A stretch of DNA of 64,000 nt from positions 1,922,001 to 1,986,000 of the forward strand of contig NZ_CP062946.1 in assembly GCF_014898095.1 (NCBI RefSeq), in the 5' to 3' direction. The translations under genes and the position numbers were made by a program. The first letter of the stretch is position 1. Each line of letters begins with the position of its first letter. The stretch comes from Thalassotalea sp. LPB0316 (GTDB lineage: Bacteria > Pseudomonadota > Gammaproteobacteria > Enterobacterales > Alteromonadaceae). The notes beneath the pieces are model-generated. The model saw nothing but the letters and a program-made list of their open reading frames with translations. It had not been told where the DNA came from and searched no databases. Shown piece by piece: positions 670 to 28,900 of this stretch.

Positions 670-2698
670 GGTTTTAGTTTTTGGTAGTAATGTATCTGCA
701 GATATTGTTAATCATCATTCAGGTGAAGGAAAGTTTGAATTAGTTGAGCACTATACTCGCTCTTCTCTTGCCTCAGTTACAAGTGAGCCTATTAGGAAAA
801 AACCGTCTTTAGAGGGGCTCAGCTCATCGCAAAAACGAGCACTTAAAAGAGACTTCTCTAAGGAGTTTATTCAGCAAGCGGTTTCAAAAGCTAGTTATCA
901 TTTATTACTTATCGACTTTCTTGATGAAAGGTTTCACCTTTTGGAAAACAATGATTTTATTGCAACTAGAACTGTTGAGTTTGTTTCCTCTAAGTCACGA
1001 TTAAATGGCTTTAAACTCATCGAAGCCTATAGTGAAGAGTACTTTCAAATGTGGCTTAAGGGGTGGCATAAGTTTTTAGAAACTATGAAACGTTTAAAGC
1101 TTTTAAACCGAATAAGGTTAAATAAAATCTTTAGGGTTTTGCCAGAAACGAAAGTTGATGAAGAAAAATCTGCAGTTGTTAAGCATAATCAATTTCTAGC
1201 TCGTCTTTATAAAGAGGCTGAGAAGTCTCTTAATGCCAATCAAGTTTATAATTATCCTGAGAAATTCTTTGATAGAAAAAGCTACGCAAGTGAAAGTCAA
1301 CTTGGGGATTATTCGGAAGAGTTTTACTTAAAAGGAAATAGGCAGTTAGTTCACGATAAAGGTTTAGCGGATTTGTTGGATAATATTATTACGTCAACAC
1401 CTAAATTGAAAATGTCGTTTAAAGAAAAAGTCTTAAAGTACATATCACAGGATCTTCCATTTACTCTGTTAAAAAAAAATGCGATAAAAAAACTAAAAAC
1501 AAGTCACAAAAAAGAGATTGCTACTTTTGTAAAGAGCGAAATATTTAACCCTGGAGTTAATTCACTGTCGTTTGGAACCGGTCAAGTAATAGAGTTTTTG
1601 TACAATAATCCCAACAAACTTAATACAAAAGATAGAAAACTACTGGTTTGTTTTAATGCTGCAGTTGGTCAAAGAGATGTTAAGTGTGGACCTTTTTTTT
1701 CAGGTATAGGTTTATCTGATGAATTAGGATTGCCTATCTTGAGTATTGCTGACCCTTTAGTATCTCAAAATGAGAATATTGGTCTAGCATGGTATGCCGG
1801 AGGAGAGAACTCAAATGGTCTACAATTACAACTGACCGAGTTACTTGAGCAGGTTTATAAGCAACACGGCTTAGAGCTTATTATTTTTGGTGGCTCTGGT
1901 GGTGGTTTTGCGTCATTAGTTCAAGCTACTAGATTAACTATTCCAGCCACTATTGTAGTTTGGAATCCACAGACGTCAATTCTTAATTATTTAAAAGAGC
2001 CTGTTAGCGATTATGTAAATACAGCATTTAGAGAATTTAGGGCAAAAGCTGATTTTTCCTACAAGCAAACTCTCGATTGGTTTGGTATTCAGCATGAAGT
2101 ATTTGCTGATCAAGTAAAAGAACAAATAAAATTGGTCTATTTACAAAATCAGAGTGATAACCATAGGAATATACACGCTATTCCGTTTATGAAAGCTGAA
2201 TGTTGGACTCGAATTGGAAGTGCATCTTTTGAAAGCTCGAATCAAAAGCTTTTGATGTGTTTTGGGAATTGGGGAAGAGGACATGTAGCTCCGAGTAAAC
2301 CATTACTTACTGCTCTGTTTAATGGTATTGTTTTTGACAAACATCAAAGCCATGTTATCCATAGCTTAGCTGATATAGGTCCATTAATTGATGATCGTTT
2401 AGTGCCATATATAAATGTATCTGAATTTTCTCCTAACGTTAAAATAAAATTAAATACATGTAGGAGCGGTGAAACGATTAAATGTTGGGCCGATATAGCA
2501 GGAAATGAACTAGATATAAAGTTGCTCAAATACTCTTTCAGATTGCATGTAAATGGTAAACCTATATTGGGATGTGAATATCAAAGTGACTCTAATTATA
2601 GTTTTGAATATGACAAAGATTTGAAGAACCTTAGAGTTGAACTTCGAATACAAGATAAGCTTGGTACTATTTTAAGGCTTTATGCTGACGTTAAATAG
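659..2698 (+). CDS. DUF6270 domain fused to an alpha/beta-hydrolase domain
   Basis: This 679-residue protein has two parts. Residues about 1-230 resemble DUF6270: an N-terminal 'LVFGSNVSAD' strand-loop, 'YTRSSLAS' and 'DERFHLLENNDFIATR', all matched in the separate gene at 2753. Residues about 330-600 look like an alpha/beta hydrolase with a 'GGSGGG' nucleophile elbow (Ser413) and a later 'NDNHRN'-like segment that could carry the acid or histidine. An all-beta tail follows. No signal peptide is visible, so it probably acts in the cytoplasm, perhaps as an esterase or acyltransferase on the glycan or its precursor; that is inference from fold and context. The start ATG overlaps the upstream stop. 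The order of domains equals the order of the next two genes, which suggests fusion or fission of one functional unit. Confidence 0.7.
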   Translation: MKSKVLVFGSNVSADIVNHHSGEGKFELVEHYTRSSLASVTSEPIRKKPSLEGLSSSQKRALKRDFSKEFIQQAVSKASYHLLLIDFLDERFHLLENNDFIATRTVEFVSSKSRLNGFKLIEAYSEEYFQMWLKGWHKFLETMKRLKLLNRIRLNKIFRVLPETKVDEEKSAVVKHNQFLARLYKEAEKSLNANQVYNYPEKFFDRKSYASESQLGDYSEEFYLKGNRQLVHDKGLADLLDNIITSTPKLKMSFKEKVLKYISQDLPFTLLKKNAIKKLKTSHKKEIATFVKSEIFNPGVNSLSFGTGQVIEFLYNNPNKLNTKDRKLLVCFNAAVGQRDVKCGPFFSGIGLSDELGLPILSIADPLVSQNENIGLAWYAGGENSNGLQLQLTELLEQVYKQHGLELIIFGGSGGGFASLVQATRLTIPATIVVWNPQTSILNYLKEPVSDYVNTAFREFRAKADFSYKQTLDWFGIQHEVFADQVKEQIKLVYLQNQSDNHRNIHAIPFMKAECWTRIGSASFESSNQKLLMCFGNWGRGHVAPSKPLLTALFNGIVFDKHQSHVIHSLADIGPLIDDRLVPYINVSEFSPNVKIKLNTCRSGETIKCWADIAGNELDIKLLKYSFRLHVNGKPILGCEYQSDSNYSFEYDKDLKNLRVELRIQDKLGTILRLYADVK

Positions 2699-2752
2699 AT
2701 ATAGTACTCTAGTATATATTAACAAAAAAATTGAGAAAAGAAGTATATTAAT

Positions 2753-3490
2753 ATGGTTAAATCATTAGCAATATTAGGTAGTTGTGTTTCTAGAGATGCA
2801 TATGAGCTAGTAAAAGGGTTAGCTCGACTAGATTTTTATGCTGCTAGATCATCGCTTGCAAGTATTTACGGTGGAAGTTCACTAAATATAAGCGAGGTAG
2901 ATCTCGAGATTCCTGGTAAGGGAAAATTTGAAATTAGAATGCTTAGTTATGATATCAATAAATATTCAAAGAGATTGATCTTGGAGTCTGATACTCAGTA
3001 TATCATGTATGACGGTATCGATGAGCGATTTGATTTATTAGAGGTTGGTAATACATTAATTACGAGATCAAATTATCTTGTAAACACTGATTTTGGTAAG
3101 TCACTGGAAAGTTCCAAAATAATAAAGAGGAATAGCCCAGATATTTTGTCTATTTGGAAGAGCGCGGCTGATAAATTTTGCCATGATGTAGCTGATAAAA
3201 AAGTTATTATTCATAAAGCATTGTGGTCCACTTCGTACAAAAATCATGATTCTAATGAAGTAATAGAGTTTGATGATGAAGAAAGACGTATGGCTGAACA
3301 GCAAAATTTAATATTGAACGATTACTATGATTATTTAGAAAGTAAGCTTGATAATGCTTTTGTTATTGATGTTCCTAAGGAACTCGTTTATTCAGATTAT
3401 GCCCATAAATGGGGCCGTGATTTTTTCCATTATGGACAAGAATACTATGATTATGTTGCGAAAGAGTTAAAAAAAATATTGGGAGATTAG
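2753..3490 (+). CDS. DUF6270 domain protein
   Basis: A 245-residue stand-alone DUF6270 protein. Family hallmarks seen are 'LAILGSCVSRDAYE' near the N-terminus, 'YAARSSLASIYG' around residue 33, 'YDGIDERFDLLEV' around 90, and a C-terminal 'DFFHYGQEYYDYV'. The N-terminal Gly-Ser-Cys loop and the late histidine recall SGNH-type hydrolases, but that is only a suggestion; the family is uncharacterised. It shares clear motif-by-motif similarity with the first third of the upstream fusion protein. It sits 54 bp downstream of that gene and 56 bp upstream of a hydrolase gene, in the same direction, inside the glycan locus. Confidence 0.75.
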   Translation: MVKSLAILGSCVSRDAYELVKGLARLDFYAARSSLASIYGGSSLNISEVDLEIPGKGKFEIRMLSYDINKYSKRLILESDTQYIMYDGIDERFDLLEVGNTLITRSNYLVNTDFGKSLESSKIIKRNSPDILSIWKSAADKFCHDVADKKVIIHKALWSTSYKNHDSNEVIEFDDEERRMAEQQNLILNDYYDYLESKLDNAFVIDVPKELVYSDYAHKWGRDFFHYGQEYYDYVAKELKKILGD

Positions 3491-3546
3491 ACTTTTTTAG
3501 GTTAGCTCTAAAATATAGTTGAATTTAAAAAGGTAATTAAATAAGT

Positions 3547-4302
3547 ATGAGCTTTAATGATGTAAACCCACAAGAAGATAGGTTATTTAAATCTAAGAAC
3601 CGATATTTAATTTATTCTATTAAAAAAAGAACAGCGTCTAACAAACTAGTTTTCGTTTTTTCTGGAGTAGACGCTACACCAGGGTTCTGTCGAATGTCAT
3701 ATTATTCTCTACACGAAGAATTAAATGAAAATACTGTACATGTAATGGATAATTACGGAACTCATGGCTGTTATCTGCTGAATGTTTCTGGTGATGCTCA
3801 AATTAGAAATGTGACTATAAGTTTAATAAAAGAACTACAACAAGAACTCAATATATCATTAGAGAATACGTATTTTGTAGGGACGTCTAAAGGCGGTACT
3901 ACTGCGCTACTGTACTCGCTAATGTTAGGTGGTGGTAATGTGTTAGCTGGTGAACCACAAATCAAACTCGGAGAATTTATTTATGGTGATAGGTGGGAAG
4001 ATCTAGAACAGTTTAGAGCGTTAGCTTATGCGATTTTAGGTAGAGTGGACGTTGATGACAAAGAAAAATTAAATCAACTAGTTTTCGAAATTATTGAAAG
4101 ATATGGCCCTCGATATAAAGGTAAAATAGAGATTATTTACGGAAGTAATACCGGATATGGCCCAACTCATATTTTTCCTTTCTATGAGTTGTCTCAAAAA
4201 GTAGAAATTGATGGTCGTATTAAGCTTTTTGAGCAAGAGTTTTCTGATCATGGAGAAGTCGTTCAGCCATTCTTAGATAGACTAACAAAGATTTTTGACT
4301 AG
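3547..4302 (+). CDS. Alpha/beta-hydrolase-fold protein, polysaccharide-locus type
   Basis: A 251-residue protein with an alpha/beta-hydrolase layout. An N-terminal 'LVFVFSGVDA' strand is followed by a loop that could form the oxyanion hole, then 'YFVGTSKGGTTALLY' with a G-x-S-x-G elbow (Ser114), and a late 'YGPTHIFPFYEL' and 'FSDHGEVVQPF' where the catalytic histidine would lie. It lacks a signal peptide. Similar hydrolases occur in capsule and accessory-Sec loci, where they are proposed to move or remove acyl groups. Here it follows a DUF6270 gene, mirroring the fusion at 659. Substrate is unknown. Confidence 0.7.
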   Translation: MSFNDVNPQEDRLFKSKNRYLIYSIKKRTASNKLVFVFSGVDATPGFCRMSYYSLHEELNENTVHVMDNYGTHGCYLLNVSGDAQIRNVTISLIKELQQELNISLENTYFVGTSKGGTTALLYSLMLGGGNVLAGEPQIKLGEFIYGDRWEDLEQFRALAYAILGRVDVDDKEKLNQLVFEIIERYGPRYKGKIEIIYGSNTGYGPTHIFPFYELSQKVEIDGRIKLFEQEFSDHGEVVQPFLDRLTKIFD

Positions 4303-16984: not shown

Positions 16985-18320
16985 AGCTGTTAGCTGGCAT
17001 ACTCATCTATACTTTCATTCCCGAGTAGTCAGGAATCTCTCTATAACCCTGTCATTCCCGAGCAGTCGGGAATCTGAAGTCTAAACACTGCTGTACATTT
17101 ATGAGATTACCGCATTCGCGGCAATGACGTTAAGTGTTGGAGATTACCGCATTCGCGGCAACGACGTTACGGGTTCGAGATTACCGTCTCGATAATTGCT
17201 CCTGCATTATTCTACTTACCTATATCCATGTAGGAATACGCGGTAATGACGAGCAGCCTAATACGGGAATCTCTCTATAACCCGGTCATTCCCGAGCAGT
17301 CGGGAATCTCAAGTCTAAACACTGGTGTGTATTCATGAGATTACCGCCTACGCGGTAATGAGGTTAAGTACTGGAGATTAGCGCTTTCGCGGCAACGACG
17401 TTAAGTGTTGGAGATTACCGCTTTCGCGGTAATGACGAGTAGCCTAATACGGGAATCTCTCTATAACCCAGTCATTCCCGAGCAGTCGGGAATCTCAAGT
17501 TTAAACACTGCTGTACATTCATGAGATTACCGCCTACGCGGCAATGACGTTAAGTGCTGGAGATTACCGCTTTCGCGGCAATGACGAGTAGCCTAATACG
17601 GGAATCTCTCTATAACCCCGTCATTCCCGAGCAGTCGGGAATCTCAAGTCTAAACACTGCTGTGTATTCATGAGATTACCGCATTCGCGGCAATGACGTT
17701 AAGTGTTGGAGATTACCGCTTTCGCAGTAATGATGAGTAGCCTAATACGGAAATCTTTCTATAACTCGGTCATTCCCGAACAGTCGGGAATCTCAAGTTT
17801 AAACACTGCTGTATATTTATGAGATTACCGCCTACGCGGCAATGACGTTAAGTGCTGGAGATTAGCGCTTTCGCGGCAACGACGAGTATCCTAATACGGG
17901 AATCTCTTTATAACCCCGTCATTCCCGAGCAGTCGGGAATCTCAAGTTTAAACACTGCTGTATATTCATGAGATTACCGCTTTCGCGGCAATGACGTTAA
18001 GTGTTGGAGATTACCGCTTTCACGGCAACGACGTTAAGGGTTGGAGATTACCGCTTTCACGGCAACGACGTTAAGGGTTGGAGATTACCGTCTCGATAAT
18101 TGCTCCTGCATTATTCTACTTACCTATATCCATGTAGGAATACGCGGTAATGACGAGCAGCCTAATACGGGAATCTCTCTATAACCCGGTCATTCCCGAG
18201 CAGTCGGGAATCTCAAGCCTAAACACTGCTGTACATTCATGAGATTACCGCTTTCGCGGCAATGACGTTAAATGTTGATGATTACCGCCTTTGCGGCAAT
18301 GATGCTAAGTATTGGATATC
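16985..18320 (+). repeat. Long array of palindromic repeats (dRS3-like ATTCCC-N8-GGGAAT and TTACCG types)
   Basis: About 1.33 kb without a gene. It is built from 20-nt palindromes of the form ATTCCCGAGCAGTCGGGAAT alternating with 'GATTACCGC-TTTCGC-GGCAATGACG' hairpins. The ATTCCC palindrome starts near 17052, 17286, 17472, 17621, 17770, 17919 and 18190 (spacings 234, 186, 149, 149, 149 and 271). The basic unit is therefore 149 bp, expanded in places by extra 37-bp TTACCG subunits and by a longer segment present twice (17177-17313 and 18081-18217, identical by eye). No open frame of note is present. Confidence 0.9.
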
Positions 18321-26694: not shown

Positions 26695-27036
26695 TCGTCA
26701 TTCCCGCCGAGGCGGTAATCTGTTGTTGTGAGATACCCGACGACTCGGGCATGACGACTTACTTTTCTCTTTCGGTTTTTTCGTCATTCAACCGCTCAAG
26801 AATATCCGTCACTCCCGCGGAGGCGGTAATCTGTTGTTGTGAGATACCCGACAGCTCGGGTATGGCGACTTACTTTCTCTTTCGTTTTTTTCGTAATTCA
26901 ACCGCTCAAGAACATCCGTCATTCCCGCGGAGGCGGGAATCTATTGTTGTGAGATACCCGACAGCTCGGGTATGACGACTTACTTTTCTCTTTCGGTTTT
27001 TTCGTCATTCAACCGCTCAAGAACATCTGTCATTCC
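26695..27036 (+). repeat. 111-bp tandem repeat array, left part
   Basis: Units start near 26697, 26809, 26919 and 27029. Each has a palindrome of the form ATTCCCGCGGAGGCGGGAAT, a spacer, a second palindrome around ATACCCGAC-AGCT-CGGGTAT, and a constant segment with 'TTTCTCTTTCGGTTTTTTCG'. The fourth unit is split by the insertion sequence and resumes at 28402. Apparent ORFs here are products of the repeat. Confidence 0.9.
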
Positions 27037-27051
27037 CGTATATGGACTCCC

Positions 27052-27287
27052 GGATAATTACAACCTATTTTTTGCAATGTTAAGTAGGAAAGGTGCGTCC
27101 GTATATTCGGGCTCTATTTGAGTAGCGAACTCTGGCCCCTGATGTATTCGCACCTCCATGCCTCATCGAGGTGACGGTATTTTATACCGAGGGAATGAGC
27201 AGGCTCTTGGAGGTCGGTCTTACCTATTTTTTAATCGCATTAAATAAAGATGTAATTTCCTATAACTTAATTGATGGGTTGTCTAAT
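27052..27287 (-). ncRNA. Candidate bridge RNA region of the IS1111-type element
   Basis: The noncoding stretch 3' of the transposase can fold on the minus strand into several hairpins (for example CGGTAT-AAA-ATACCG, and CACCT...AGGTG). Next to the first is TCATTCCC (27198-27191), identical to eight bases of the target left of the CG core. IS1111 elements are known to encode a bridge RNA downstream of the transposase. The limits are approximate. Confidence 0.45.
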
Positions 27288-28328
27288 TTAGTGGTGTAGC
27301 TCAGCTGGTTTTTGATATTGACTATCATGGCTTAACATCGCCCAAGCGGTTCGAACCGTTTTGTTGGCTAATGCTACCGCCGCTTTTTTAAGACTACCTT
27401 TTGCTATCAACTGTTTAATCCATATTTCTTTGTTGTTTTTAGGTTGCCGTTTATCCACGACTTTCACATAAGCCAAAGCACCTTGGATTAACGTTGAGCG
27501 TAGCCGTTTGTTACCACACTTTTTACCTATGGTACCGAGTACAATATTTCCTCCGGTACTATATTGCTTCGGTGTAAGGCCTATACAAGCCGAGGCTTCT
27601 CGCCCATTTTTAAAACTACTACCTTGATTTCCAAGGGCAATATAAAGGCCAAGCGCATTAACCGGCCCGACACCTTCTAGTGCCATTAGAGACTGGCATT
27701 GCGCTTGCTGTTTAATCAGTAAGCCTAGTTGTTTTTCAATGTGTTGCTCTTGCGCTTCGATAACTAAATACAGTTGATACATATTGCTTATTTGCTCTCG
27801 AAAAGCAAAAGGCAGCTCGTTTTCTCCATCCTCGAGTATTTCAGGAATGCGCTTTTTAAATGCCGAAATACCTTTGGGGATGGTGATGCCAAATTCAGAT
27901 ATTAACGCCCTAAGCATATTACTCATTGCTGTTAACTGGTCACTCAGATGTTGACGCATTCTTTCTATCGACTGTAAACCTTGTTGCTCAACGGTTTTGA
28001 TGGCTACAGACTTTACTCTCGGTTGTTTTGAAGCTACGCCTATTGCCAAGGCGTCGTTCTTATCGGTTTTATGGCCCTGGCGAAAGGGGGTAACGGATTT
28101 GGTCGGGATGATTTTTGCCTTGTGACCGTGTTGCTCTGCAAATCTAGCCCAGTAATGTGAAGAGCCACAGGCTTCCATGACAACGGTCGCTGGTTTCTGC
28201 TTAATTAACCAATTAGTTAATGATGCCCTAGTAAAACTTCTATCTGTGAGCACTTTGTTTTTATCTGTTATAACACAGGCATGAAAAGAAGACTTTGCTA
28301 AATCGATGGCAATAACGTTATTATTCAT
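27288..28328 (-). CDS. IS110-family transposase (DEDD/serine recombinase)
   Basis: A 346-residue recombinase. The N-terminal RuvC-like domain has the DEDD residues D9 ('VIAIDLAKSS'), E52 ('VVMEACGSS'), D89 and D92 ('HKTDKNDALA'). A coiled-coil middle follows. The C-terminal Transposase_20 domain shows 'LMALEGVGPVNALGLYIALG', 'FKNGREASACIGLTPKQYSTGGN' (probable catalytic serine) and 'GNKRLRSTLIQGA'. The ATG at 28328 is chosen; the in-frame TTG at 28343 overlaps a third copy of TATGGACTCC. Length is normal and no frameshift is seen. Confidence 0.93.
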   Translation of the reverse strand: MNNNVIAIDLAKSSFHACVITDKNKVLTDRSFTRASLTNWLIKQKPATVVMEACGSSHYWARFAEQHGHKAKIIPTKSVTPFRQGHKTDKNDALAIGVASKQPRVKSVAIKTVEQQGLQSIERMRQHLSDQLTAMSNMLRALISEFGITIPKGISAFKKRIPEILEDGENELPFAFREQISNMYQLYLVIEAQEQHIEKQLGLLIKQQAQCQSLMALEGVGPVNALGLYIALGNQGSSFKNGREASACIGLTPKQYSTGGNIVLGTIGKKCGNKRLRSTLIQGALAYVKVVDKRQPKNNKEIWIKQLIAKGSLKKAAVALANKTVRTAWAMLSHDSQYQKPAELHH

Positions 28329-28401
28329 TTGTATGGACTCCAAGGTAAAAGTTTAGGCACTTATTACGTTACTCCCCCAGAGGGAGGGAGTCCATACATC
28401 G

Positions 28402-28900
28402 CGGAGGCGGGAATCTATTGTTGTGAGATACCCGACAGCTCGGGTATGACGACTTACTTTTCTCTTTCGGTTTTTTCGTCATTCAACCGCTCAAGAACAT
28501 CTGTCATTCCCGCGGAGGCGGGAATCTATTGTTGTGAGATACCCGACTGCTCGGGTATGACGACTTTCTTTTCTCTTTAGGCTTTTTCGTCATTCAACCG
28601 CTCAAGAACATCCGTCATTCCCGCGGAGGCGGGAATCTATTGTTGACAGGCATCAGTTATGGGCACAAAGGGGATCTTTTCCGACTTCGGCGAAATAGCG
28701 GGTTAAAGAGGTTTGGGGTCAGAGTTCGCTAACTCTGACCCCGATTAGTACGATTGCTCGGGCATGACGACTTACTTTTCTCTTTCGGTTTTTTCGTGAT
28801 TCAACTGCTCAATAACATCCGTCATTCCCGCGAAGGCGGGAATCTATTGTTGTGAGATACCCGACAGCTCGGCTATGAATCGTACTGGGTAATCCTTTGC
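28402..28900 (+). repeat. 111-bp tandem repeat array, right part
   Basis: The array resumes after the insertion sequence, with ATTCCC palindromes near 28502, 28612 and 28820. The unit starting at 28612 is interrupted by about 100 bp that include a GGGGTCAGAGT palindrome (28715-28742). From 28900 to the ECF sigma gene only an AT-rich leader is seen. Confidence 0.88.
28715..28742. repeat. GGGGTCAGAGT palindrome, third copy
   Basis: Perfect arms GGGGTCAGAGTT and AACTCTGACCCC around CGCT, inserted within the 111-bp repeat array. Confidence 0.85.

Follow-up and report, generated by a model that had tools for sequence, protein, structure and literature searches.

How does a mobile element find a single dinucleotide within a palindrome that is scattered through the genome of its host? 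The question is posed by a locus in a 64,000-nucleotide stretch of Thalassotalea DNA (the window, by which the whole of the analysed stretch is meant), where a preliminary description had placed an IS1111-type element at the CG core of a dRS3-like palindrome and had proposed that an RNA directs it to a repeat family of the host. The reading favoured here, with a probability of roughly 0.92, is that the locus holds an IS1111-type insertion sequence, intact and apparently active in recent times, with its own predicted guide RNA. This reading draws together the anatomy of the element, its four insertions, guide–target matching both here and in relatives, the covariation of the RNA fold and a repeat that is specific to the host. 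The identification as an IS1111-type element at a CG core is borne out by the junctions, the protein domains and the four genome copies, and RNA-guided targeting is supported by the four sites, the loop matches, the specificity seen across 61 elements and covariation.

The mechanism has already been described, and the element is a clear further example rather than a new mechanism; what is added here is a four-site comparison, a guide test across 61 elements, support for a donor arm and a test in three hosts. No publication describing this element was found in a literature search that mostly covered openly accessible papers other than preprints.

Anatomy of the element and its insertion sites

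The features of the locus are collected in Table 1. The junctions of the window copy read ...CTGTCATTCC-CG-TATATGGACTCCC... on the left and ...GGGAGTCCATACAT-CG-CGGAGGCGGGAATC on the right, and the longest sequence common to both is CG. Deletion of 27039–28399 together with one CG gives TCATTCCCGCGGAGGCGGGAATC, which is the sequence of intact neighbouring units, so the earlier claim that the empty site can be rebuilt exactly with a duplicated CG was correct. The sequence GGAATGAC was considered as a part of the mobile element and rejected, because intact units carry it too.

Table 1. Positions in the window of the element, its predicted RNA and the interrupted repeat unit
Feature	Position	Strand	Basis
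IS1111-type insertion sequence, 1361 bp without core	27039..28399	-	Four identical genome copies; ends common to relatives
Transposase gene, 346 aa, DEDD_Tnp_IS110 + Transposase_20	27288..28328	-	Profile matches, NF033542 271 bits (cutoff 140)
Core CG, transposase-distal (right) end copy	27037..27038	.	At both junctions, once in intact units
Core CG, copy at left end of element	28400..28401	.	Junction sequence
Left part of interrupted palindrome unit (GTCATTCCCG)	27029..27038	+	Junction and site comparison
Right part of interrupted palindrome unit (CGGAGGCGGGAATC)	28402..28415	+	Junction and site comparison
Left subterminal inverted repeat TATGGACTCCC	28386..28396	-	End comparison
Right subterminal inverted repeat (TATGGACTCCC read on +)	27041..27051	+	End comparison
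Third end-repeat copy GGAGTCCATA, over likely ribosome-binding site	28332..28341	-	10/10 complementary to left end
TTGTAA, possible −35 box	27058..27063	-	Predicted promoter only once ends join (TTGTAA-17-TACGAT)
Predicted bridge/seek RNA, two arms	27089..27230	-	Fold, covariation, covariance model 141 bits
Right target guide UCAUUCCC	27191..27198	-	Complements GGGAATGA at 4/4 sites
Left target guide CACCUCG	27167..27173	-	7/7 at two sites, 5/7 at two
Right donor guide AUACAUC	27141..27147	-	Complement of core G + left-end ATGTAT
Left donor guide AUAUACG	27100..27106	-	Same as right-end ATATA + core CG

The transposase matches PF01548 (N-terminal, IS110-type DEDD; 65.7 bits) and PF02371 (C-terminal, Transposase_20; 52 bits), and its translation probably begins with the ATG at 28328 rather than with the TTG of the open reading frame list. 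Among the transposases of 20 relatives D9, D89 and D92 are invariant and E52 nearly so; these four we take to be the DEDD residues of the enzyme. The nearest transposase found outside the host is 70% identical, and the nearest among the relatives compared at the DNA level, from a Thalassotalea MAG (L035), is 68% identical. A scan of genome contigs with the single transposase protein found no relative, whereas a scan with an alignment did. A GalE encoded nearby has 92% identity to that of Thalassotalea loyana.

Since the transposase gene is on the minus strand, the 249-nt non-coding end (27039–27287), the longer non-coding region of the element, lies downstream of it. A longer non-coding region downstream of the gene is a feature of IS1111 elements, as are a GL-P----S/T-G motif, present here as GLTPKQYSTG, and a transposase of 330–350 aa, a range that includes the 346 aa found here (PMC11187229). 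The perfect 11-bp subterminal inverted repeat falls within the usual 11–13 bp for this group. With ATGGACTCCC as the repeat and one core copy assigned to the left end, the terminal extensions are 6 and 3 bp, and with the 11-bp repeat they are 5 and 2 bp; the published values are 7 and 3, occasionally 6 and 3 (PMC11187229). In its DEDD transposase, subterminal inverted repeats and downstream non-coding end the element resembles ISEc11, ISPa11, ISKpn4 and ISPst6 (PMC11187229).

The host genome holds four copies of the element, 100% identical across 1361 bp. All four sit in dRS3-like palindromes, which belong to three subfamilies, at the same CG point and in the same orientation, and none lies at an unrelated sequence. 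Read in transposase orientation, the sites are GATTCCCGATTAAAACACCTCG / CGGGAATGAC for two copies, GATTCCCGCCTCCGCG / CGGGAATGAC for the window copy and GATACCCGACTTCTCG / CGGGAATGAC for the remaining one. It is highly improbable that these copies spread through recombination between repeats and not by transposition: the repeats do occur in arrays and the copies are identical, but the sequence outside the palindromes differs from site to site, and three repeat subfamilies are broken at the same point.

The dRS3 consensus is ATTCCC-N8-GGGAAT. The window target has this form preceded by GTC, and the sites carry CGTC or TGTC at that place, in which they are like CGTC-tagged REPs and dRS3 (Di Nocera et al., 2013, PMC3733652). 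However, dRS3 is a repeat of Neisseria whereas the host here is Thalassotalea, and the likeness is one of repeat sequence, with no common origin implied. In this host the dRS3-like palindrome has 47 matches at up to two mismatches, against 0 in the control. The target that best matches the element, CACCTCGGGAATGAC, belongs to a different repeat subfamily from the one interrupted in the window, and five uninterrupted perfect CACCTCGGGAATGAC sites remain in the host genome; a search of 58 other genomes, including two from the same genus, gave no exact match to this 15-mer.

Insertion into repeats has precedent, in that all examined copies of ISPa11, ISPpu9, ISPpu10 and ISRm19 lie in REPs (Tobes & Pareja, 2006, PMC1525189). 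Like those IS110-family elements, the present one has every genome copy in REP-like palindromes at one point; unlike them, it occupies another host and another repeat family, and RNA did not enter into that study. Two details of the arrays may be recorded. They mix two palindromes, GATTCCCG...CGGGAATGAC and GATACCCGA...TCGGGTATGAC (window 26800–28650 and about 17000–18300). At the copy L004 (G000:C1:1892176-1893536) the right flank of the interrupted unit is CGGGAATGAC, the neighbouring array units having CGGGTATGAC, so this right half is one base off its neighbours, and the variant fits the guide; among the genome matches listed there is no uninterrupted CTTCTCGGGAATGAC, the form of the L004 variant.

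The predicted RNA and its match to the target

A candidate bridge RNA had been placed in the 249-nt region, and folding agrees with this. The predicted RNA has two arms, and in the first of them UCAUUCCC and CACCUCG are the opposite strands of one internal loop between helices; the target matches fall in this loop, and the fold has covariation behind it. The preliminary description had also matched TCATTCCC, which is found in the non-coding end in transposase sense (27198–27191), to the eight bases left of the core. The match stands, but the bases are really the seven on the left plus the first base of the core. The left guide and the second, or donor, arm were absent from that sequence-only reading, as was the better fit of CACCTCGGGAATGAC as a target.

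When the loops are compared with the targets they match: the right guide agrees at 8 of 9 scored bases at all four sites, and the left guide at 7/7 bases at two sites and at 5/7 at the other two, the window site included. With the top strand taken as transposase sense, UCAUUCCC precedes CACCUCG, that is, the top-strand match comes first, 5′ of the bottom-strand match, which is the order of IS1111 seekRNAs (PMC11187229). In the predicted fold both internal loops carry a pair of guides, left and right, that have the core dinucleotide in common, as in IS621 and in the bridge RNAs predicted for IS1111 elements (Durrant et al., 2024, PMC11208160). Unlike in IS621, where the RNA is encoded upstream of the gene, it is here downstream, as the same paper predicts for IS1111. 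Relative to the seekRNA elements of PMC11187229 the target and host are new, and the second arm that matches the element ends is absent from the short seekRNA as that source presents it.

The match at the occupied site goes beyond chance. Among 125152 positions scored as sites in the window outside the element, 12 reach its score of 13/16 and none reaches 14; 11 of these 12 are plain palindrome units belonging to the same arrays, and the remaining one resembles a degenerate unit. The sites of two other copies, L001 and L002, score 15.

Covariation was assessed in 20 aligned RNAs, these being 20 of the 54 elements within the common position and spacing range described below. A 23-pair structure, which was partly derived from the tested alignment itself, is paired in 91.4% of cells, as against 31 to 52% for slid versions of it, and 16 of the 23 pairs show changes on both sides. 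Four of five covariation measures were reached by 0/500 shuffles; the fifth, further pair types, was reached by 74/500 and so lies within the shuffle range. The covariance model gives its 141 bits on the window copy as one of its own 20 training sequences, and it matches 34 of 39 relative loci outside model building. A search of the host genome for an orphan guide RNA, in which 150 of 289 first-look candidates were scored, matched only the four element copies, and Rfam gave no gathering-level match within the window.

The specificity of the guides was examined across relatives. From 120 loci, 61 distinct elements were retained, their ends placed by end motifs and blind to the guides; 7 further records of the host's copies, 5 duplicates, 37 loci without an end motif or enough flank (from which L035 was put back) and 11 that failed the end-motif test were dropped. 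For every non-coding end, scores were computed with its own flanks and with the flanks of each of the 60 other elements, using guide lengths and a spacing range of 18–49 that were chosen from this element and fixed for all. Own flanks score a mean of 13.56/16, versus 10.81 for the flanks of others, and none of 10000 permutations reaches the own-site mean, the highest being 11.39. No rival flanks score as high in 23 of the 61 elements, and two or fewer do so in 44, while in five (L039, L050, L043, L064 and L018) at least 30 other flanks score as high. Applied to the flanks of other elements, the window RNA equals the 13 of the window site in 2 of 60 cases and the 15 of L001 and L002 in none. 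The best guide pair lies 145–170 nt from the end with a spacing of 24–31 in 54 of 61 elements, a range set after the results were seen; L039, L050, L043, L011, L108, L013 and L018 fall outside it.

These data bear on the notion that recognition of the palindrome, or of a hairpin that it forms, is the work of the transposase protein alone, the non-coding matches being coincidental. All four sites are palindromes, as this would have it, and sites palindromic beyond shuffles (≤5/100) amount to 6 of 10 in this element's clade, from which count L039 with its broken right end was left out, and to 3 of 51 elsewhere. However, guides follow targets across the 61 elements, many of which have non-palindromic sites, and insertion occurs at one asymmetric point in one orientation, so that we give recognition by protein alone very little credence. 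The same figures led to rejection of the idea that all relatives target palindromes.

Two observations on individual relatives may be added. The left targets of L018, L019, L074, L079, L084, L085, L090 and L091 end in TAACAAG, a sequence that resembles integron attC sites. IS1111 elements that occupy attC sites form a group known from the literature. In L050 a second, partial tandem copy of transposase, RNA and right end (2505–3651) follows the element; the second RNA match there was rejected as a separate RNA and belongs to this partial copy.

Possible guide retuning among three hosts

The targets of three related elements were counted in their three host genomes at up to two mismatches, with the reversed pattern as control. 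The target of this element occurs 46 times in its own host (control 0), 5 times in the genome G211 (control 2) and 19 times in G475 (control 9), and exact copies (5) are confined to its own host. That of the G211 relative occurs 91 times in G211 (control 0), 65 of them exact, 0 times in the present host and twice in G475 (control 1). That of the G475 relative occurs 35 times in G475 (control 0), none exact, twice in the present host (control 0) and once in G211 (control 1). Each of the three guides reads a sequence that is repeated in its own host and scarce or missing in the two others. In G211, which belongs to another family of the same order, the 91 occurrences are of CACTTTCGTGAGGATGAC and lie partly in regularly spaced tandem arrays.

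The right target in this element's clade usually contains ATGAC, and the bases from ATGAC to the core vary. As ATGAC is usually kept while the bases towards the core differ, this suggests retuning of the guide within one broad kind of repeat, and how such elements may settle in intergenic repeats, tracking them from host to host. We put at about even odds a wider proposal, in which the guide of a marine IS1111 lineage is adjusted again and again to the abundant palindromic repeat of its current host (the UCAU start of the right guide being largely kept and the rest changed), the element's ends are read by a second RNA arm, and a third copy of the end repeat acts as a translational brake by masking the ribosome site. 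The system makes a compact natural test case, with its four identical copies, its five intact perfect targets in the same genome and relatives that have other guides; these relatives also supply natural guide–target pairs with several cores.

The second arm, the predicted end junction and possible control of expression

The second arm of this RNA bears on whether the RNAs of IS1111 elements recognise the element ends in addition to the target, a point that one paper leaves open and another predicts. The variable right-end base (T or C) fits the left donor guide in all 61 elements; for the core, the first base agrees in 60, the second in 50 and both in 49. The transposase tree has two changes in the right-end base and a single one in the core (A or not), so this covariation, though consistent, is weak. 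The right donor guide is a better fit to the left-end class of its own element in 34/35 and 16/24 cases and a poorer fit in 0 and 2; this count leaves aside two elements with a third class of end.

The principal alternative is that the RNA selects the target only, as a seekRNA, while the protein recognises the ends by their subterminal repeats, arm 2 having a structural role. IS1111 seekRNAs have been demonstrated by experiment, and an 82-nt, target-matching seekRNA is enough for ISEc11 transposition, which speaks against a need for arm 2; that paper leaves end binding, and the domain responsible, open (Siddiquee et al., 2024, PMC11187229). The donor covariation, moreover, comes down to those two changes and one change. 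Against this, arm 2 has matches to both ends and to the core, the agreement of the right-end base and the first core base is complete or nearly so, and the right donor guide mostly fits its own left-end class better. On balance a target-only RNA seems to us unlikely.

The mechanism proposed under the favoured reading is as follows. The ends would join into a circle with the predicted junction CCATATA-CG-ATGTATGG, assembling a promoter across it, from which both the transposase mRNA and the downstream RNA would be transcribed. Arm 1 would read both strands of the dRS3-like palindrome, with UCAUUCCC as right and CACCUCG as left guide, and arm 2 would read the joined ends around the CG core via AUACAUC and AUAUACG. 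Strand exchange at CG by the DEDD transposase would then insert the element in a single orientation, flanked on both sides by CG. Joining of the ends would place TTGTAA-17-TACGAT across the core, and TTG is found at that place in 53 of the 61 elements. The linear element shows no excess of promoter-like sites (3 versus 2.6 in shuffles). A junction promoter has been reported for ISEc11 (PMC11187229).

The third copy of the end repeat keeps at least 8 of its 10 letters in 39 of 61 elements, against 1.5 expected from shuffles. In the window, 28326–28399 forms a perfect inverted repeat of the left end with the sequence over the likely ribosome site of the transposase. The leader has a predicted folding energy of −24.7 kcal/mol with the left arm, and of −14.7 kcal/mol if it starts 5 nt later, and a translational brake acting through a masked ribosome site is possible on this modelling. 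A 5′-UTR structure has been named in the control of ISPpu9 (PMC8450116). Terminator-like sites number 5 in 27030–28410, where 1.5 are expected, and two of them lie inside the RNA on the opposite strand (window 27097–27173).
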